21,217 nt of DNA from a virus: positions 1-21,217 of the IMG/VR virus record IMGVR_UViG_3300042396_000490; one strand, given 5' to 3'. Below are positions 2,805 through 15,089 of the stretch, piece by piece (position 1 is the first letter of the stretch; each line of letters starts with the position of its first letter). The translations under genes were made by a program, and so were the position numbers. Under the pieces are notes generated by a model, which saw only the letters and a list, made by a program, of their open reading frames with translations, had not been told where the DNA came from and did no database searches.

Positions 2805-3765
2805 CCTAGGCAGCTATGCGACCGGGGAGGTTGGCGGGTTTGCGGCGCAATTATTCAGGATTGCAGCGCACAACCCGCTAAGGCCAATTGTGGCAAGGCT
2901 TCCAGCCAACGGAATGCCCATAATTAAAGAACTGTACCAGGGAAAAGCGCCAGAAATCGCCAGGGTTGAAGAGCCGGTTATTGTCAGGCGCGAAGTCAGT
3001 CAGGATCGGGGGCTTGTCGCCTTCTCAGGCGGAAAAGACTCGACGGCCGTTGCTATCAAGATGGTTCAGCAAGGCATATCCACCGAGCTTTTCAACGTAT
3101 CAGGGATTAATCCAGCCTACCCGGAGGAAATTAAGGCGGCGCGAAGTGTGGCTGGGGAGCTTGGCGTCAAAATGTCCGTGCTGTCCGTGAAATTGGGGCC
3201 GCAAGCTTGGGTCGAGAATCCAGCAAAGAACCAAGTGATTTTGGGTCTTATGATCGACTACGGGACTAGGATCGGGGCTGGCTCTTATGCAATGGGCATC
3301 ATGACCACCGAAGAGGCGGCGGAAGTTTCGTTCGACTATGGGTATTCGGACGCAATCGAAATGCACCGGGCCGGAGCTGAAACTTTCGAGGGCATGGTGC
3401 CAGGAATCAAAGTCCATACCGAGCTTTTAAAAAACGAGATTGACAGCTACCGAACCATATTGGGATTCAACCCGGGTCTTTTGGCAAAAATTCAGAGCTG
3501 CATGACGCCGATTCGATACCGGGGCGTTCATCATAAAAACAACCGGGCGAAGTTTGGCGCGACTATTTTGCCGAATCGTTGCGGGTCTTGCTACAAGTGC
3601 GCTCAGGAGGTCTTAATACTAAAGGACTTGGGCCATTTAACCCCAGGAACCGCGCTAGTGGGTCACGCAGTAGAAACCTTGGCAAAGGCAGCACCTAAAT
3701 TGATAGGAAGCCATGCAAAAGCCATGTCCAGGCAAGAAATTATCAACTATTTTACCAAGGAATAA
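2770..3765 (+). CDS. QueC-like PP-loop ATPase with C-terminal Cys cluster
   Basis: The 331-residue protein has the PP-loop SGGKDS at 86-91, which binds ATP and releases pyrophosphate. The later part resembles QueC (7-cyano-7-deazaguanine synthase) in order: SDAIEMHRAGAETFEGM, GIKVHTELLKNEI, SC (243-244) and CGSCYKC (271-277), giving four cysteines for zinc. QueC itself is about 225 residues; this one has about 80 extra N-terminal residues and a much longer gap between the first Cys and the CxxCxxC. Automated tools may label it PAPS reductase-like. The ATG at 2770 is preferred over in-frame starts from 2539, since that extension lies inside the methyltransferase and is low-complexity. The substrate is unknown; the linkage suggests nucleic-acid modification. 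Confidence 0.7.
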   Translation: MKTSQKSKKSIDLGSYATGEVGGFAAQLFRIAAHNPLRPIVARLPANGMPIIKELYQGKAPEIARVEEPVIVRREVSQDRGLVAFSGGKDSTAVAIKMVQQGISTELFNVSGINPAYPEEIKAARSVAGELGVKMSVLSVKLGPQAWVENPAKNQVILGLMIDYGTRIGAGSYAMGIMTTEEAAEVSFDYGYSDAIEMHRAGAETFEGMVPGIKVHTELLKNEIDSYRTILGFNPGLLAKIQSCMTPIRYRGVHHKNNRAKFGATILPNRCGSCYKCAQEVLILKDLGHLTPGTALVGHAVETLAKAAPKLIGSHAKAMSRQEIINYFTKE

Positions 3766-3768
3766 CCA

Positions 3769-4374
3769 ATGTCTTATTCATACGGGTGCTATGAGCGCGA
3801 GTCAGAAACTCATGGTCTAGGGTGCTTTTCAGCTATGCGGTTTTATGAGGGGCAAATTATCGGCGGGTTTTCCGGAAAGTGGCTGCTTTTGCCATTGATC
3901 GACGGCCAGCCGGTTTATCCGTCCTCGATTGATTGGCGGTATTGTATCGACGTCAAAATCATGACCTTTTTAGGCGCTGAATTTTGCCTTGTTCTAAACC
4001 CATTGGGCGGCATCGGCCATAACCCTATTGATCGGATCAATCACAGCGACAAGCCAAATTGCAGGGTCGAGGGGCTGATGGTGGTGGCTGATATGACTAT
4101 CCAGCCATGGGACGAGCTTTTTATTGACTATTCAAAGCTGGATTGTACCGAGGTTATTTTTGATAGCGCTGAACAAGCGCCAGCTTTCCAGCCTCAACAG
4201 CCGCAGTGCAATCAATGCCAAGCTGAGCAAAAAAGCGCGGGTTTGTCAGGCATCCGTGAGCTTGTTCAATGGCTTTTTTGTGACTGCCTAAGTCCGGAAA
4301 TTTGGCAGCAAGTGAAAGCGCGGCTTTCCACTTTTCTTGAGCCATTAAGGCCTTTAGTTGGTCGATTTTTTTAG
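3769..4374 (+). CDS. SET-domain protein (probable SAM-dependent lysine methyltransferase)
   Basis: The product has 201 residues. Residues 1-128 form a compact SET domain: HGLGCFSAMRFYEGQIIGGF near the N-terminus, then RINHSDKPNC (the NHS-x-x-PN motif of the SAM site), then DELFIDYS (the catalytic E-L-x-x-DY motif). SET proteins methylate lysine side chains; the substrate in this phage is unknown. A CNQCQ motif after the domain could bind metal but is no standard post-SET pattern. The last 73 codons are antisense to the minus-strand gene 4154-4387, so that tail may be functionless read-through. The gene starts 3 bases after the PP-loop gene with AAGGA upstream, so the two are surely co-transcribed. 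Confidence 0.75.
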   Translation: MSYSYGCYERESETHGLGCFSAMRFYEGQIIGGFSGKWLLLPLIDGQPVYPSSIDWRYCIDVKIMTFLGAEFCLVLNPLGGIGHNPIDRINHSDKPNCRVEGLMVVADMTIQPWDELFIDYSKLDCTEVIFDSAEQAPAFQPQQPQCNQCQAEQKSAGLSGIRELVQWLFCDCLSPEIWQQVKARLSTFLEPLRPLVGRFF

Positions 4375-6082: not shown

Positions 6083-7591
6083 ATGAAAGGGCAAGAAATC
6101 GACGCAATTATTCAGAATGAAATACAAAGCCACCACCCGGTAAAAGGGGTTGACGAGATTTTGCAAATTCTTGTCCAGGCTGAGCAAGGCTATCTGGTGA
6201 GGCAGGCTGAGTTATTTGACGATATGGAAGAGCGCGACACCCATATTGGCGCGGAAATGGCTAAAAGAAAAATGCAGGTCAGCCAGCTTGATTGGTCGCT
6301 TGTTCCGGCATCATCAGCGGGAGCCAAGGAAAAAAAGGATGTCGAAAAACTCCAATCGCTGATTATAGACAATGTGGACGTCGAAAGTTTGGTGCTTGCC
6401 ATGTCCGACGGGATTGGGAAAGGGTTTTCGTGCATTCAAATCGAATGGGCCAGGGATCAATTAACCGGGCTATGGGTTCCGGGCGCTTTAAGGCCTAGAC
6501 CGGCGCGATGGTTTACAGTGGATCGGGCTACCCGGCAAAACATCCGAATCAGAACCGGAGCAAATAGCATTGACGGCGCTGAGCTTTTGAAAGACCAGTG
6601 GATTTGCCACCATCACTTTACAAGATCGGCAACCGGGCCAGCGACTAGCGGGCTATTCCGACAAATCGCCCTACCCTATGTCTTTAAAAATTTCGCCATT
6701 AAAAATTGGTTGCGGTTTTGCCAGTCATACGGGATTCCACTCAGGGTTTTGTTTCACAATGAAAAGGACGAGGCCAAAAAACGAGCACTCAGAGCGGCGC
6801 TTTATAGCCTAGGGTCGAGCGGCGTTGCATTGATCGAAGGCGGCACAACAGACGACCTGAAAACCGTAGACCTGACCAGCGGAGAGGGGCAAGGCTTCCA
6901 GGCCTTAGTCGACTGGTCTGAGTCGTCGGTTTCTAAGGCCATCTTAGGCGGAACTTTGACCAGCGACAGCGGGAAAAATGGCAACTATGCGACTGCCAAT
7001 ATCCATGACTCAGCCAGGATTCAGATTAGAAACCACGACTCAAAGCAAATAGCCGAAACCCTGACAAGGCAATTTGTCGGCGCTATGGCGCGGGTTAATG
7101 GGCTGAGCATTCGGGCAAGATGGGTTTTTGATACTCAAGACCCTGAAGACTTGGCGCTTTATGCCGACGCACTTCCAAAGCTGGCAGCGAGAAAGGTCAG
7201 AATCCCTCTTAAATACGTGCATGACAAGCTGAAAATACCGCAGGCTGTTGATGGTGAAGAGATTATGGACATCGGCGAAAGTAAACCCGAAATAACCCCA
7301 AAACAACCCCAACAAGGGTCAGGGCTGGCTTACCTATCTGGCAGCATAGCCAAGAGCAGGTTCACCAAAGAGCAACAGGCTGTCGAGGATTTGGCTGACG
7401 AGCTTTTAAAACGGCTTTCAAGCCCGGTTGACCCTGAAGCCATCGCGGCGGCTATTCGCGGAGCCAAAGACCCGCAAGACCTTGACAATAGGCTAGCGGT
7501 GGCGCTTGGCGGGGCTGATTTTGAAGGGTTCGCGGATATTTTAGAGCGGGCGCTGTTTGCGGCTGATGTCATGGGGTATGCCCATGGCTAA
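6083..7591 (+). CDS. Portal protein, Mu gp29-like (DUF935)
   Basis: The protein has 502 residues from the ATG at 6083, preferred over an in-frame upstream start at 6026 that would overlap the terminase by 53 bases; GGTGA lies about 5 bases before 6083. Typical DUF935 stretches are MEERDTHIGAEMAKRKMQV, GKGFSCIQIEW, LRPRPARWFTVD, LPYVFKNFAIKNWLRFCQSY, and VSKAILGGTLTSDSGKNGNY. The portal is the dodecameric ring at one capsid vertex through which DNA passes. The C-terminal 90 residues are charged and variable. An 8-base overlap joins it to the MuF-like gene, the usual Mu order of portal then minor head protein. Confidence 0.88.
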   Translation: MKGQEIDAIIQNEIQSHHPVKGVDEILQILVQAEQGYLVRQAELFDDMEERDTHIGAEMAKRKMQVSQLDWSLVPASSAGAKEKKDVEKLQSLIIDNVDVESLVLAMSDGIGKGFSCIQIEWARDQLTGLWVPGALRPRPARWFTVDRATRQNIRIRTGANSIDGAELLKDQWICHHHFTRSATGPATSGLFRQIALPYVFKNFAIKNWLRFCQSYGIPLRVLFHNEKDEAKKRALRAALYSLGSSGVALIEGGTTDDLKTVDLTSGEGQGFQALVDWSESSVSKAILGGTLTSDSGKNGNYATANIHDSARIQIRNHDSKQIAETLTRQFVGAMARVNGLSIRARWVFDTQDPEDLALYADALPKLAARKVRIPLKYVHDKLKIPQAVDGEEIMDIGESKPEITPKQPQQGSGLAYLSGSIAKSRFTKEQQAVEDLADELLKRLSSPVDPEAIAAAIRGAKDPQDLDNRLAVALGGADFEGFADILERALFAADVMGYAHG

Positions 7592-11042: not shown

Positions 11043-11969
11043 ATGGCAAATTCAAACTCACCATTGGTTATCGTTCCGAAGCTTTCGGCGGTAGCTATTA
11101 AATATCGACAAAAGGGCTTGATTGCTGACCAAGTTTTGCCAAGAACTAAGGTTGACTCTCAGGAGTTCATCAGCTTGGCTGACAGAATGGCCGAGTGGAT
11201 TTCTCCACCCGACACCACGGTCGGCAGAACTTCAAACGTCAACAAGCTGGCAAATTCGGCGCAAGACCCCACCTATTTGGCAACCGTCAACCAGGGCTTA
11301 GACGAGCCGGTTCCGAACCAGGACGAAATGAACGGGCCTTCAGAATCGGCGTTGGCCAGAGCGGTGGCGCGGGTGATGGGCTTTGTTGAGCTTCGCAGGG
11401 AAATCAGAGCCGCAGCAATCACGACTACGGCTGGAAACTACGCGTACACCGCGACCCTTTCTGGCACAAGCCAATGGTCTGACAAGGTGAACAGCAATCC
11501 ATTGAATGATTTGCTTACCAACCTAGACAAGCCGTTTATGCGGCCTAACAAGGTGGTCATGGGTCGCGACGTTTGGACGCAGCTTTCGCAACACCCGAAA
11601 ATGATAGAGGCGGCATTCTGGGCAGGTGCTCAAGCGGGCAAAATCACCCGTCAGCAGTTGGCTGACTTGCTGGAAGTCGAAGAGATTATTGTGGGCGATG
11701 GTTGGCAGAATACAGCTGTCAAAGGCCAGACACCGGTTAAAACAAGAATTTGGGGTAAGTTCTTGGCTGGATTCTATCAAGGCGACTTTGACAACGATTC
11801 CGGCAACGCTTGGGGCTATACAGCGCAGTTCGGCGACAGAATCGCGGGAACCATCGTCGACCCCAATATCGGTCTGTTTGGTGGCGTCAATGTAAGGGCT
11901 GGCGAATCGGTCAAAGAAGTTGTCGCAGCGCCAGAATTCGGGTTCCTGCTGTCCTCGGTCATAGCCTAA
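11043..11969 (+). CDS. Major capsid protein
   Basis: The protein has 308 residues. Recognisable features are AIKYRQKGLIADQVLPRTKV near the start, WISPPDTTVGRTSNVNKLA, DLLTNLDKPFMRPNKVVMG, VWTQLSQHPKMIEAAFWAG and a final GVNVRAGESVKEVVAAPEFG. It resembles 300-350 residue major capsid proteins of the HK97 fold found in siphoviruses and Mu-like phages; I cannot assign it to gpT or E families with certainty. Position after protease/scaffold and decoration genes, a good ribosome site (AAGGA, 8 bases upstream) and a strong terminator right after it all fit the most abundant virion protein. Confidence 0.85.
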   Translation: MANSNSPLVIVPKLSAVAIKYRQKGLIADQVLPRTKVDSQEFISLADRMAEWISPPDTTVGRTSNVNKLANSAQDPTYLATVNQGLDEPVPNQDEMNGPSESALARAVARVMGFVELRREIRAAAITTTAGNYAYTATLSGTSQWSDKVNSNPLNDLLTNLDKPFMRPNKVVMGRDVWTQLSQHPKMIEAAFWAGAQAGKITRQQLADLLEVEEIIVGDGWQNTAVKGQTPVKTRIWGKFLAGFYQGDFDNDSGNAWGYTAQFGDRIAGTIVDPNIGLFGGVNVRAGESVKEVVAAPEFGFLLSSVIA

Positions 11970-11987: not shown

Positions 11988-12010
11988 AGGGCGGGAAACC
12001 GCCCTTTTTT
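11988..12010 (+). terminator. Rho-independent terminator after the major capsid gene
   Basis: A perfect 7-base stem AGGGCGG (11988-11994) and CCGCCCT (11999-12005) closes a GAAA tetraloop and is followed by six T (12005-12010). This is a textbook intrinsic terminator. Only 20 bases separate it from the next gene and no strong promoter is visible there, so it probably reduces rather than abolishes downstream transcription. Confidence 0.92.
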
Positions 12011-12030: not shown

Positions 12031-12327
12031 ATGCCTAAAATTATTTTAAATGACAACGTGCTGCATGATAACGAGCTGCACGAAAAAAGCAGAAAGCCAG
12101 TTGACTCCGAGTCTATCGGCTTAAGTAAAAAGCAATTAAGCGCATTGGTTGAGTCGGGCGCTGTGTCGCTTTATGTGCCAGATGAGGCGGAAGGCGAAGA
12201 GGAAGATGACGCAGCAGCCAGGGCAGCAGCTGAAGCAGCCGAAGCTGAAGCAGCCGAAGCTGAAGCAGCAGCCAGGGCAGCGACCAAGGCAGCGACCAAA
12301 GCTGACAAAGACAAAGGCGGCAAGTAA
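12031..12327 (+). CDS. Small protein with Ala/Glu-rich repeat tail
   Basis: The 98-residue protein has an ordinary N-terminal half (PKIILNDNVLHDNELHEKSR, then GLSKKQLSALVESGAVSLYV) that looks like a small folded domain. A strongly acidic stretch (EAEGEEEDD) and an Ala/Glu then Ala/Thr/Lys tail built of short repeats follow. Mu-like phages carry a small gene (gp35) between capsid and gp36 genes; this one fits by position and N-terminal form, but I cannot confirm homology. The start has GGTGA 5 bases upstream. The stop and the next start share a base (TAATG). The tail should be a charged helix or disordered. Confidence 0.6.
   Translation: MPKIILNDNVLHDNELHEKSRKPVDSESIGLSKKQLSALVESGAVSLYVPDEAEGEEEDDAAARAAAEAAEAEAAEAEAAARAATKAATKADKDKGGK
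12229..12273 (+). repeat. 15-base tandem repeat inside the Ala/Glu-rich gene
   Basis: gctgaagcagccgaa occurs twice exactly (12229-12243, 12244-12258) and a third time with changes at its end (12259-12273). It encodes AEAAE units. A second short repeat, gcagcgaccaa, follows twice near 12278-12299. Such repeats can change copy number by slippage while keeping frame. Confidence 0.8.
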
Positions 12328-13976
12328 TGAAGGGGCCACGAAGATCGGTTGCGACAAGGATTGCAACCCCGGCAACAAACCCAGGGACGCCAGACACCAC
12401 CCCACCAACAGCGCCAGGAACGCCAGTAGTTAGTAACATTTCGGGTGATGGTGTCACCATCACCTTTGCAGAATCTACTGATACGGTGGGTGTTGCTGGG
12501 TATGCAGCATTCATAGATGGTGGAAACGCTCACGCAGCAATAAGCAACGGAAACAATCCAAGCATTATCATTTTAGGGTTGCTTCCAGGTGAGCATAGAG
12601 TTGAAGTTAAGGCGTTTGACTTGGCGGGTAATTTTTCAACTGCTAGCGAGTCGGTTGGGTTTGAAGTAAAAAAACCAGGAACAGGTGAGGTATATCTTCC
12701 GCCAATGGCAAAAATAATCGACCCTTTAAGCATCACTAATATTAGTGATAAAGCTTGGACAATGGTCGAGGCGTCGGGGGGGGAGTCTGCATTATCGGCG
12801 TTGCACTTAGGGCTTGGAAGTGGCGCAGGATCAAAAACGATAAAAATATCTACCCCAGCATCATCAGGTTTAAACGGATCAGCAACCGCACCCCTTAGCG
12901 CAGTAAACATGTCTGAATATGACTATATTGAGATATCATATTTTAGCGAGCAGTACGACGCGGTTTCACCTACATTCGGCGCGCTATATTTATTTACATC
13001 AACACCAAGTACGTCTGATTATTATTCGATTAACATCCAAGTTTTAAACCCTGGGTGGAATATTTGCCGAATATTAAAGTCATTGTTTTCAATAACTGGC
13101 TCACCAAGTTGGAGTAACATAAATCAGGTCAGGTTTAGGGTTAATTCATCAACAAACACTATCAGGACTTTATATTTTGCCGACCTTCGCGGGGTTGTGT
13201 TATCTCAACAGCGTGCAGCAATATCGGTAGGAATAGATGACGGGCATAAGTCTTCATATCAAGTTGCGGCGCTAGCTGCGGCAAGAGGGATAAGGCTAAC
13301 TTACTTTATTATGCCAGACTTAATAGGTACAAATAATTATCTGACCAAAAGCGACTTGATGGATATTAGGGCCATGGGTCACGAACTGGCAATTCACGGG
13401 CCAGGAGGGGTATACGGTAACGGGAACTGGATGGACGAGCTTAACGGCATAGGATATGACGCATTTGTTGAGAAATTGAGAGCCGACAAAGATGCGATGA
13501 TGGAGCTTGGTGTTGATATTGAGTGCGCGTCCTATCCTCAAGGGGTATTTGCAAGTTATCCGGTGCAAAACGGTTTTGAAAATGACCCGTTGCAGAATGC
13601 TTTAAAGGAAGTAGGGATTAAATTTATCCGAATGATTGTATCGACCGGATTTTTTGGAATTTATGCGCTATACAGCACAAGGTTCCCAAAATGCTCAAGA
13701 TTAATATTAGGCGGATTCTCTCTTAACAATACAACATCACTTGCACAGGCAAAAGCAAACATTGACGCTGCTAGGGATGCCGGGGCATGGATTAATATTT
13801 ACGGTCACAAATCAGCATCAACCGCATTGGACAGCACAACTTGGGCTATTAGTGATTATATTGATTTGTTTGACTATATCCAGGCAGGAAAAATAGCAGG
13901 GAGTTATGTAGTCAAGCCATTTTGCGAAATGGCAAGAGAGTTAAAATCTAGGGGCTTTTTAACTGATACAGAATAG
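12327..13976 (+). CDS. FN3 domain plus NodB-type polysaccharide deacetylase, virion-associated candidate
   Basis: The 549-residue protein has three parts. Residues about 24-115 form a fibronectin type III domain (PPTAPGTPVVSNISGDGVTI to EVKAFDLAGNFS). Residues about 128-292 form an unassigned beta-rich domain ending YFADLRGVVLS. Residues about 296-549 form a NodB-like carbohydrate esterase: GIDDGHKSSYQVAALAAARG (D304-D305, motif 1), GHELAIHG (H352 and H357, metal ligands), YPQGVF (403-408, motif 3) and WINIYGH (H494). All key residues are present, so it should remove acetyl groups from an N- or O-acetylated polysaccharide. There is no signal peptide. The gene is AT-rich: 19 of 60 bases at 13021-13080 are G or C, against 34 of 60 at 7141-7200. 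This suggests recent acquisition. Confidence 0.82.
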   Translation: MKGPRRSVATRIATPATNPGTPDTTPPTAPGTPVVSNISGDGVTITFAESTDTVGVAGYAAFIDGGNAHAAISNGNNPSIIILGLLPGEHRVEVKAFDLAGNFSTASESVGFEVKKPGTGEVYLPPMAKIIDPLSITNISDKAWTMVEASGGESALSALHLGLGSGAGSKTIKISTPASSGLNGSATAPLSAVNMSEYDYIEISYFSEQYDAVSPTFGALYLFTSTPSTSDYYSINIQVLNPGWNICRILKSLFSITGSPSWSNINQVRFRVNSSTNTIRTLYFADLRGVVLSQQRAAISVGIDDGHKSSYQVAALAAARGIRLTYFIMPDLIGTNNYLTKSDLMDIRAMGHELAIHGPGGVYGNGNWMDELNGIGYDAFVEKLRADKDAMMELGVDIECASYPQGVFASYPVQNGFENDPLQNALKEVGIKFIRMIVSTGFFGIYALYSTRFPKCSRLILGGFSLNNTTSLAQAKANIDAARDAGAWINIYGHKSASTALDSTTWAISDYIDLFDYIQAGKIAGSYVVKPFCEMARELKSRGFLTDTE

Positions 13977-13992: not shown

Positions 13993-14412
13993 GTGAACTA
14001 CTGCACAGCACAAGACTTGATTGATCGGTTCGGAGAGGCTGAAATATTGCAACGAACCGACCGGGCGCGAACAGGGTCAATTGACTATTCTGTTGCTCAG
14101 ATGGCGATTGATGACGCGTGCGCGGAGATTGACGACTATCTTACCGACTATGCTCTTCCATTGTCATCGGTGCCTCTCAATCTAAAAAAACGGGCTTGCG
14201 ACATCGCCAGAAACAACCTTTTTTATGACATGCAAGTTGAGGTCGTCGAATCAAACTACAGGTCAGCAATAGAGTTTTTAAAGGGCGTTTCGTCGGGCAA
14301 ATTCAAGCTTGGTCTTGATCAAAACGGCGCTTCACAAGAGCAAAGTTCAGGGTCAATTTACATCGAAGAGCAAAGCCCAATAATGTCGGATCAGTCGCTG
14401 TCCAGCTTCTAA
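13993..14412 (+). CDS. Head-tail connector, Mu gp36-like (DUF1320)
   Basis: The 139-residue protein starts at GTG with GAGGT 7 bases upstream. The DUF1320 pattern is clear: MNYCTAQDLIDRFGEAEILQ, then AIDDACAEIDDYLTDYALPL, then LKKRACDIARNNLFYD, and FLKGVSSGKFKLGL. These small helical proteins form connector rings between portal and tail; the Mu member is gp36. The C-terminal 30 residues are Ser/Gln-rich. It is the last gene of the head block and is followed by a 251-base gap. Confidence 0.85.
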   Translation: MNYCTAQDLIDRFGEAEILQRTDRARTGSIDYSVAQMAIDDACAEIDDYLTDYALPLSSVPLNLKKRACDIARNNLFYDMQVEVVESNYRSAIEFLKGVSSGKFKLGLDQNGASQEQSSGSIYIEEQSPIMSDQSLSSF

Positions 14413-14663: not shown

Positions 14664-15089
14664 ATGGAAAACATCAGACCGGCGACTCAATCGCGCCTTA
14701 AAAACAATGTAACCGAGCTAAAAGAAGTCGCGGGCGCGGCCAGCTTGGCGCAAATTTTACAGGGCAAAAAAACCGACAAAGGGGCTTATGTTTTTCAAAC
14801 AAGGGAGTCGGCATCAAGCGGATTAAGCACCCAACTTGTCATTCAAAACGTCGATGTTCAGGTTTCGGTGGTTACGACCATTTATTGCGTTTCTGACTCC
14901 ATGGGCGGCGACGCTGCAGACGCAAGCCACGACCTAAGGGAGCTAATCAAGGCGGAATTGATCGGGTGGGAGCCGTCAGTAAATTTCGAGCCTATGGAGT
15001 TTGCAGGCGGCGACCTAATCAGTTTTTTAGACGGGTTCTACGTTTGGCGCGACAACTTCACATCACGAACAATCATTCAGCAAATTTAA
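14664..15089 (+). CDS. Tail terminator (tail completion) protein
   Basis: The 141-residue protein has the order of siphovirus tail terminators: N-terminal helix (RLKNNVTELKEVAGAASLAQ), AYVFQTRESASSG, a strand region VQVSVVTTIYCVSD, helix DASHDLRELIKAELIGWEPS, then NFEPMEFAGGDLISFLDGFY and WRDNFTS. The terminator caps the tail tube at the head end and sets its length. As expected, it lies between the connector gene and the tube gene. No Shine-Dalgarno is visible before the ATG; a hairpin sits there instead. It opens the tail operon after palindromic element copy 3. Confidence 0.75.
   Translation: MENIRPATQSRLKNNVTELKEVAGAASLAQILQGKKTDKGAYVFQTRESASSGLSTQLVIQNVDVQVSVVTTIYCVSDSMGGDAADASHDLRELIKAELIGWEPSVNFEPMEFAGGDLISFLDGFYVWRDNFTSRTIIQQI

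Follow-up and report, generated by a model that had tools for sequence, protein, structure and literature searches.

What is a polysaccharide deacetylase-like protein doing among the head genes of a phage? The stretch of viral DNA analysed here, referred to below as the window, comprises 21,217 nucleotides (positions 1 to 21,217 of IMG/VR virus record IMGVR_UViG_3300042396_000490) and carries a late operon of Mu/B3 type, in which the genes run in the order terminase, portal, F-like, G-like, I protease (PF10123, E 1.5e-74), cement, major capsid, a 98-aa ORF, the FN3-NodB gene in question, Gp36, tail terminator, tail tube and tape measure. A sequence-only reading had suggested that the enzyme may ride on the capsid. 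The explanation that we favour, with rather better than even confidence, is that the gene fills an exchangeable slot and that its product combines a constant FN3 docking part with a virion-borne glycan enzyme. The immediate surroundings of the gene are as follows.

11043 to 11969, + strand: left border of the slot, a major capsid protein of B3/KS10/Mu-like siphophage type (phrog_1005 major head protein, E 7.5e-68; PF03864, 1.2e-5)
11988 to 12010, + strand: intrinsic-terminator-like hairpin and T-run 3' of the capsid gene (found by scan; RNA fold -14.7 kcal/mol, z -3.2)
12031 to 12327, + strand: small gp35-like ORF, 98 aa, the constant left edge of the slot (relatives match in position and length)
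12327 to 13976, + strand: FN3-middle-NodB gene, 549 aa, beginning with ATG at 12327 and without internal stop
13993 to 14412, + strand: Gp36 head-tail adaptor, bordering the slot on the right (PF07030, E 9.4e-32; phrog_195, 1.7e-37)

The capsid protein matches that of Pseudomonas phage B3 and its kin at 41%. The gene had been placed between capsid and connector genes, which is correct in that the capsid lies upstream and Gp36 downstream, although the small gp35-like ORF intervenes. No Pfam match was obtained for this small ORF itself, ORFs at the gp35-like position in related slots match DUF7210 or FluMu_N weakly, and its likeness to gp35 appears to be mainly positional. The locus from capsid through small ORF and NodB to Gp36 is identical in a second IMG/VR record, with the protein 100% identical over 549 aa, and the 3' end of the FN3-NodB gene is present with the same downstream genes in records from two other metagenomes; misassembly of this order is therefore very unlikely. 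The strong hairpin behind the capsid gene (AGGGCGG GAAA CCGCCCT, then the T-run) may set the excess of capsid over slot and tail genes. Upstream of the terminase lie genes unusual for a phage late region, encoding a ParB-N/DNA-methylase fusion (1419-2804), a QueC-like protein (2863-3765) and a SET-domain protein (3769-4374). A contig of the same species extends beyond the tail tip, reaching a tyrosine integrase (PF00589, 2e-17) and then the first genes of the window again, and the phage, with its B3/Mu-type head, nevertheless looks like an integrase phage.

The stop codon of the small ORF overlaps the ATG at 12327 as TAATG, so translational coupling of the two genes is probable. A frameshift fusion of the small ORF to FN3 was considered and rejected, and simple coupling or reinitiation is preferred on the sequences, because the relative frames differ between phages (-1 in the window; the same frame after the stop in the related loci L142, L290 and L183). 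In a further phage, L156, a gp35-like N-terminus is apparently fused to an SGNH enzyme, on weak similarity, which hints that small ORF and cargo act together. The gp35-like proteins of L142 (504-968) and L290 (4345-4818) contain a long VQDVQD... tandem repeat that differs in detail between the two phages.

Three regions can be distinguished within the 549-aa protein.

12399 to 12665, + strand: FN3 domain, residues ~25-113, the proposed docking module (chitinase A1 FN3 1k85, E 1.6e-4, residues 26-111)
12714 to 13211, + strand: beta-rich middle domain, residues ~130-295 (phrog_9983 tail protein, E 3.8e-8 at 172-278)
13212 to 13973, + strand: divergent NodB (CE4-like) domain, residues 296-549 (PF01522, HfsH, chromosomal NodB at best E 5.5e-6, motif alignment)

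Both domain names given to the protein earlier hold. The FN3 assignment is borne out by the chitinase A1 match, and FN3 Pfam models gave no match to the protein at E<=0.1. Assignment of residues 296-549 to a divergent NodB is well supported by sequence comparison: PF01522 scores 14.5 bits (E 0.035), under its cut-off of 23.1, the NCBIfam HfsH oligosaccharide deacetylase model gives E 1.7e-5, yet far under that model's own cut-off, matches to chromosomal bacterial NodB proteins range from E 5e-6 to 6e-4, and the alignment covers motifs 1, 3 and 5 and part of motif 2. INPHARED held no significant relatives of the NodB part, and among 398 genomes of one phylum three weak NodB matches were obtained and a chromosomal donor was not found. 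The beta-rich middle can be aligned with the region preceding the NodB domain of another relative, L169, and is a possible carbohydrate-binding or jelly-roll domain. AlphaFold models of the whole protein, and of the middle plus NodB from a two-sequence alignment, reached a pLDDT of 37 and were discarded.

Whether the position of this gene is peculiar to one phage or recurrent was addressed by gathering relatives via capsid, Gp36 and FN3 and measuring the gap from capsid to Gp36, a survey biased to relatives of the query and from which frame-artefact gaps were removed by eye only. The gap has a median of 335 bp and a 90th percentile of 777 bp (based on 149 distinct Gp36 genes that follow a capsid gene). 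ORFs of at least 330 aa were found in 9 of 196 capsid-Gp36 gaps, as against 0/202 between protease and cement, 0/195 between cement and capsid and 5/239 between Gp36 and the terminator, the loci in these counts being partly redundant, with some records present twice, and one of the nine (L076) not being enzyme cargo. Cargo was recognised in nine distinct phages, a different set from the nine gaps in that L076 is left out and three loci whose capsid the profile missed are included. The cargo is distributed as follows.

Window and L169: NodB (L169, PF01522, 7e-8)
L005, L142, L183 and L156: SGNH hydrolase (7e-9, 3e-8, 2e-7 and 2e-4, respectively)
L290: very divergent SGNH-like protein (motifs only, no Pfam match)
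L057: GH5 pair, a 772-aa protein without family match and a GH5 hydrolase (PF00150, 1.5e-14)
L119, a Burkholderiales MAG: PslG-like pair, a Gly-rich protein and a PslG-like hydrolase (E 3e-6)

All recognised cargo is glycan-active. Most relatives carry none, and a scan with L169 matched only itself. The interval that holds ORF39 in Pseudomonas phage B3, and that lies between gp35 and gp36 in Mu, is the same place in the head module, but the cultured relatives inspected (B3, KS10, TJ1 and POA1180) hold only proteins of 129-209 aa there and no enzyme; slot cargo proteins were found in no cultured phage. Among other large gaps, that of L076 reflects rearranged tail genes, and those of L134 and of L236/L267 (the latter pair with small ORFs) are not enzyme cargo. 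The SGNH protein of L013 (2660-3991) was also set aside, being located upstream of the head protease together with other fibre-like genes in a phage whose capsid is 66% identical. A second insertion place, between Gp36 and the tail terminator, holds LamG-like or beta-rich fibre-like proteins of 404-1019 aa in L160, L169 and L170. An open-access literature search returned no paper describing the capsid-Gp36 slot, and one may exist elsewhere.

Within the slot the part that stays and the part that is exchanged can be separated. The window, L142, L183 and L290 share the FN3 at the N-terminus though the enzymes behind it differ; in the other five of the nine cargo phages no FN3 was recognised. The FN3 domains of the window and L183 are about 50% identical in front of enzymes of different fold, and that of L142 also aligns. 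L142 and L290 have 59 of their first 60 residues identical, as read from the alignment, and their DNA is 90% identical from the capsid gene into FN3, shows no identity in the enzyme and is 84% identical again from the start base of Gp36, so that homologous flanks enclose unrelated cargo. Base composition changes at the same junction: in the window, L142, L290 and L286 the small ORF and FN3 have a GC of 0.48-0.54 and the enzyme 0.41-0.44, the window's own values being 0.515 for the small ORF and 0.496 for FN3, both phage-like, against 0.419 for the middle and 0.427 for NodB. The low GC that had been taken to indicate an origin elsewhere is thus real at the positions quoted (0.317 at 13021-13080, 0.567 at 7141-7200) and in the middle and NodB regions, but does not extend to the small ORF and FN3, and foreign origin fits the enzyme part but not FN3. 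Because the DNA swap ends at FN3 and GC drops at that junction, FN3 is best regarded as the phage's own and the enzyme as the mobile part.

Tail proteins and secreted enzymes can carry FN3 domains too, which counts against reading this one as a dock. Association with the virion is nevertheless the best reading of the sequences, given the late head operon, the recurrent cargo slot, an FN3 kept while enzymes are swapped, and the precedent of a NodB-like protein on the turrets of the archaeal tailed virus HFTV1 (PMC12494034). The slot, the constant FN3 and the exchange of enzymes are visible in the sequences themselves. The slot is the interval between the gp35-like ORF and Gp36 of B3/Mu-type head modules, and the FN3-NodB gene is its cargo; the protein would be made late alongside the capsid proteins through coupling to the gp35-like ORF, and would become part of the virion, where the surface of the head or neck is its most likely place, in the manner of HFTV1 turrets or Hoc-type fibres. 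Its N-terminal FN3 would serve as the constant dock, with the beta-rich, possibly sugar-binding domain and NodB as one of several interchangeable glycan-active enzymes, and NodB would bind and de-acetylate capsule, exopolysaccharide or wall glycan of the host at adsorption.

Comparison with known systems is instructive on both sides. The turret head protein gp31 of HFTV1, for which a structure has been solved, places a galactose-binding-like and a deacetylase-like domain on capsid turrets, seated on a small base protein whose gene immediately precedes its own (PMC12494034). It resembles the window protein in having a sugar-binding-like domain followed by a C-terminal NodB-like domain, in being directly preceded by a small gene that overlaps its own (gp30, 14862-15059; gp31 from 15056) and in its location in the head-tail module. 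It differs in that no FN3 and no enzyme swapping are reported, its gene follows the connector genes rather than the capsid directly, and both motif-2 histidines are apparently present (HGYNH). The match of the window NodB to the HFTV1 protein was not significant (hhalign probability about 4.4%, E 0.009, with a two-sequence profile), and the parallel is offered as an analogy of layout, with no demonstrated homology. Hoc of T4, pb10 of T5 and gp17 of N4 likewise place Ig-fold domains on the head surface, where such Ig-like decoration is linked to glycan binding and host adhesion, but no enzyme domain is described alongside (PMC7602432).

The slot protein might instead be a tail or neck fibre, a receptor-binding protein whose gene just happens to lie among the head genes, with its FN3 bound to the neck or tail rather than the shell. 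The enzyme part of L183 shares homology with tail fibre and minor tail proteins of the SGNH type from cultured phages (E 3e-45, 30% over 435 aa; phrog_15641, 1.9e-23), a similarity that appears to tie slot cargo to a pool of virion-borne receptor enzymes. Esterases and deacetylases of tail fibres and tailspikes, exemplified by the fibre of Pectobacterium phage Possum (PMC9569702) and by Arthrobacter phage Shoya, to whose protein the 30% identity applies, also present an SGNH or deacetylase domain on a virion fibre; these, however, are annotated tail proteins, and the FN3 anchor of the slot lies outside the Shoya match (query 112-546). The FN3 regions of slot proteins weakly match the phrog_1696 major tail protein, and on the same-species contig only a 204-aa protein stands between the large tail-tip protein and the integrase, no separate enzyme-bearing or large fibre being seen downstream of the tail tip. 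The position of the gene between capsid and adaptor argues against a fibre, as does a NodB-like protein on the shell of HFTV1 (PMC12494034), and we regard this alternative as rather unlikely.

The docking model leaves the catalytic state of the NodB domain to be considered separately. Motifs were assigned by aligning it with three other NodB proteins.

13236 to 13241, + strand: motif 1, Asp304-Asp305, catalytic base and metal ligand (aligned to FDD/YDD of other NodB proteins)
13395 to 13409, + strand: motif 2, H357-G-P-G-G361, first metal His kept, second replaced by Gly (aligned to HTVHH, HSEDH and HSWTH of the three)
13533 to 13544, + strand: motif 3, Y-P-Q-G, residues 403-406 (alignment)
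13806 to 13808, + strand: motif 5, His494, the catalytic acid position, in YGHK (alignment)

The metal site had been described as complete, with D304/D305, H352 and H357 and the later motifs present. D304/D305, H357, YPQG and H494 are indeed in place, but H352 is not a metal ligand of motif 2; it is the conserved GH histidine that precedes motif 2 in NodB proteins (PMC10967932). The CE4 form of motif 2, H(S/T)xxH, is not found, Gly361 standing at the second His, and by its motifs the domain is CE4-like and dyad-type rather than canonical CE4. Some NodB proteins are inactive, which counts against an enzymatic role. The fold might accordingly have been retained for sugar binding only, the second metal histidine having been lost to G361 as in a pseudo-enzyme, a state compatible with docking and for which catalytically inert NodB proteins provide examples (PMC10967932). 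Both motif-1 aspartates, H357, YPQG and the motif-5 His494 have been retained, however, and BoPDA and CtAxeA, CE4 enzymes that similarly lack the second motif-2 histidine and keep that of motif 5, bind metal through the same dyad, CtAxeA being active (PMC11713874). Those are bacterial enzymes, whereas the window protein belongs to a phage. Loss of catalysis seems less likely than not, and deacetylase activity based on two metal ligands is plausible by analogy with these dyad-type CE4 enzymes.

The protein could also act away from the virion, altering the glycans of the lysogenic host itself or being freed at lysis. The phage is temperate, with its tyrosine integrase, and FN3-enzyme layouts are common in secreted bacterial enzymes, the FN3 matches here including chitinase A1. 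Against such a role, the N-terminus, MKGPRRSVATRIATPATN, is not signal-peptide-like as judged by eye, in agreement with the earlier remark that no signal peptide is present, its ATG overlaps the stop codon of the late gene before it, and different phages keep both FN3 and the same late position; lysogenic conversion or lysis-stage release is highly improbable. That unrelated genes enter a tolerant intergenic site with no functional tie to the virion, as the low GC of the cargo and its absence from most relatives might suggest, is barely credible when the recognised cargo is all glycan-active, four phages share an FN3 fused in frame to their respective enzymes and the recombination boundaries fall at the FN3 end.

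The exchangeable slot with its FN3 dock may have a more general meaning. We propose, tentatively and at somewhat less than even confidence, that bacterial phages with B3/Mu-type heads have a dedicated socket on the head (or neck) at which an FN3 adaptor presents glycan enzymes of unrelated folds (NodB and SGNH; elsewhere GH5 or PslG-like without FN3), swapped at the FN3/enzyme and enzyme/Gp36 boundaries, so that the capsid would gain a means of stripping capsules or setting host range that does not depend on the tail. The tail genes are where phage host-range enzymes are generally sought, and the capsid-adjacent slot would be another place to look, with a simple genomic rule for finding more, namely to read the gap from the capsid and gp35-like ORF to Gp36. 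The slot also gives a testable prediction of what decorates B3/Mu-type heads. If the proposal is true, the capsids of bacterial phages can bear exchangeable surface-stripping tools, much as the turret of HFTV1 suggests for a virus of archaea.
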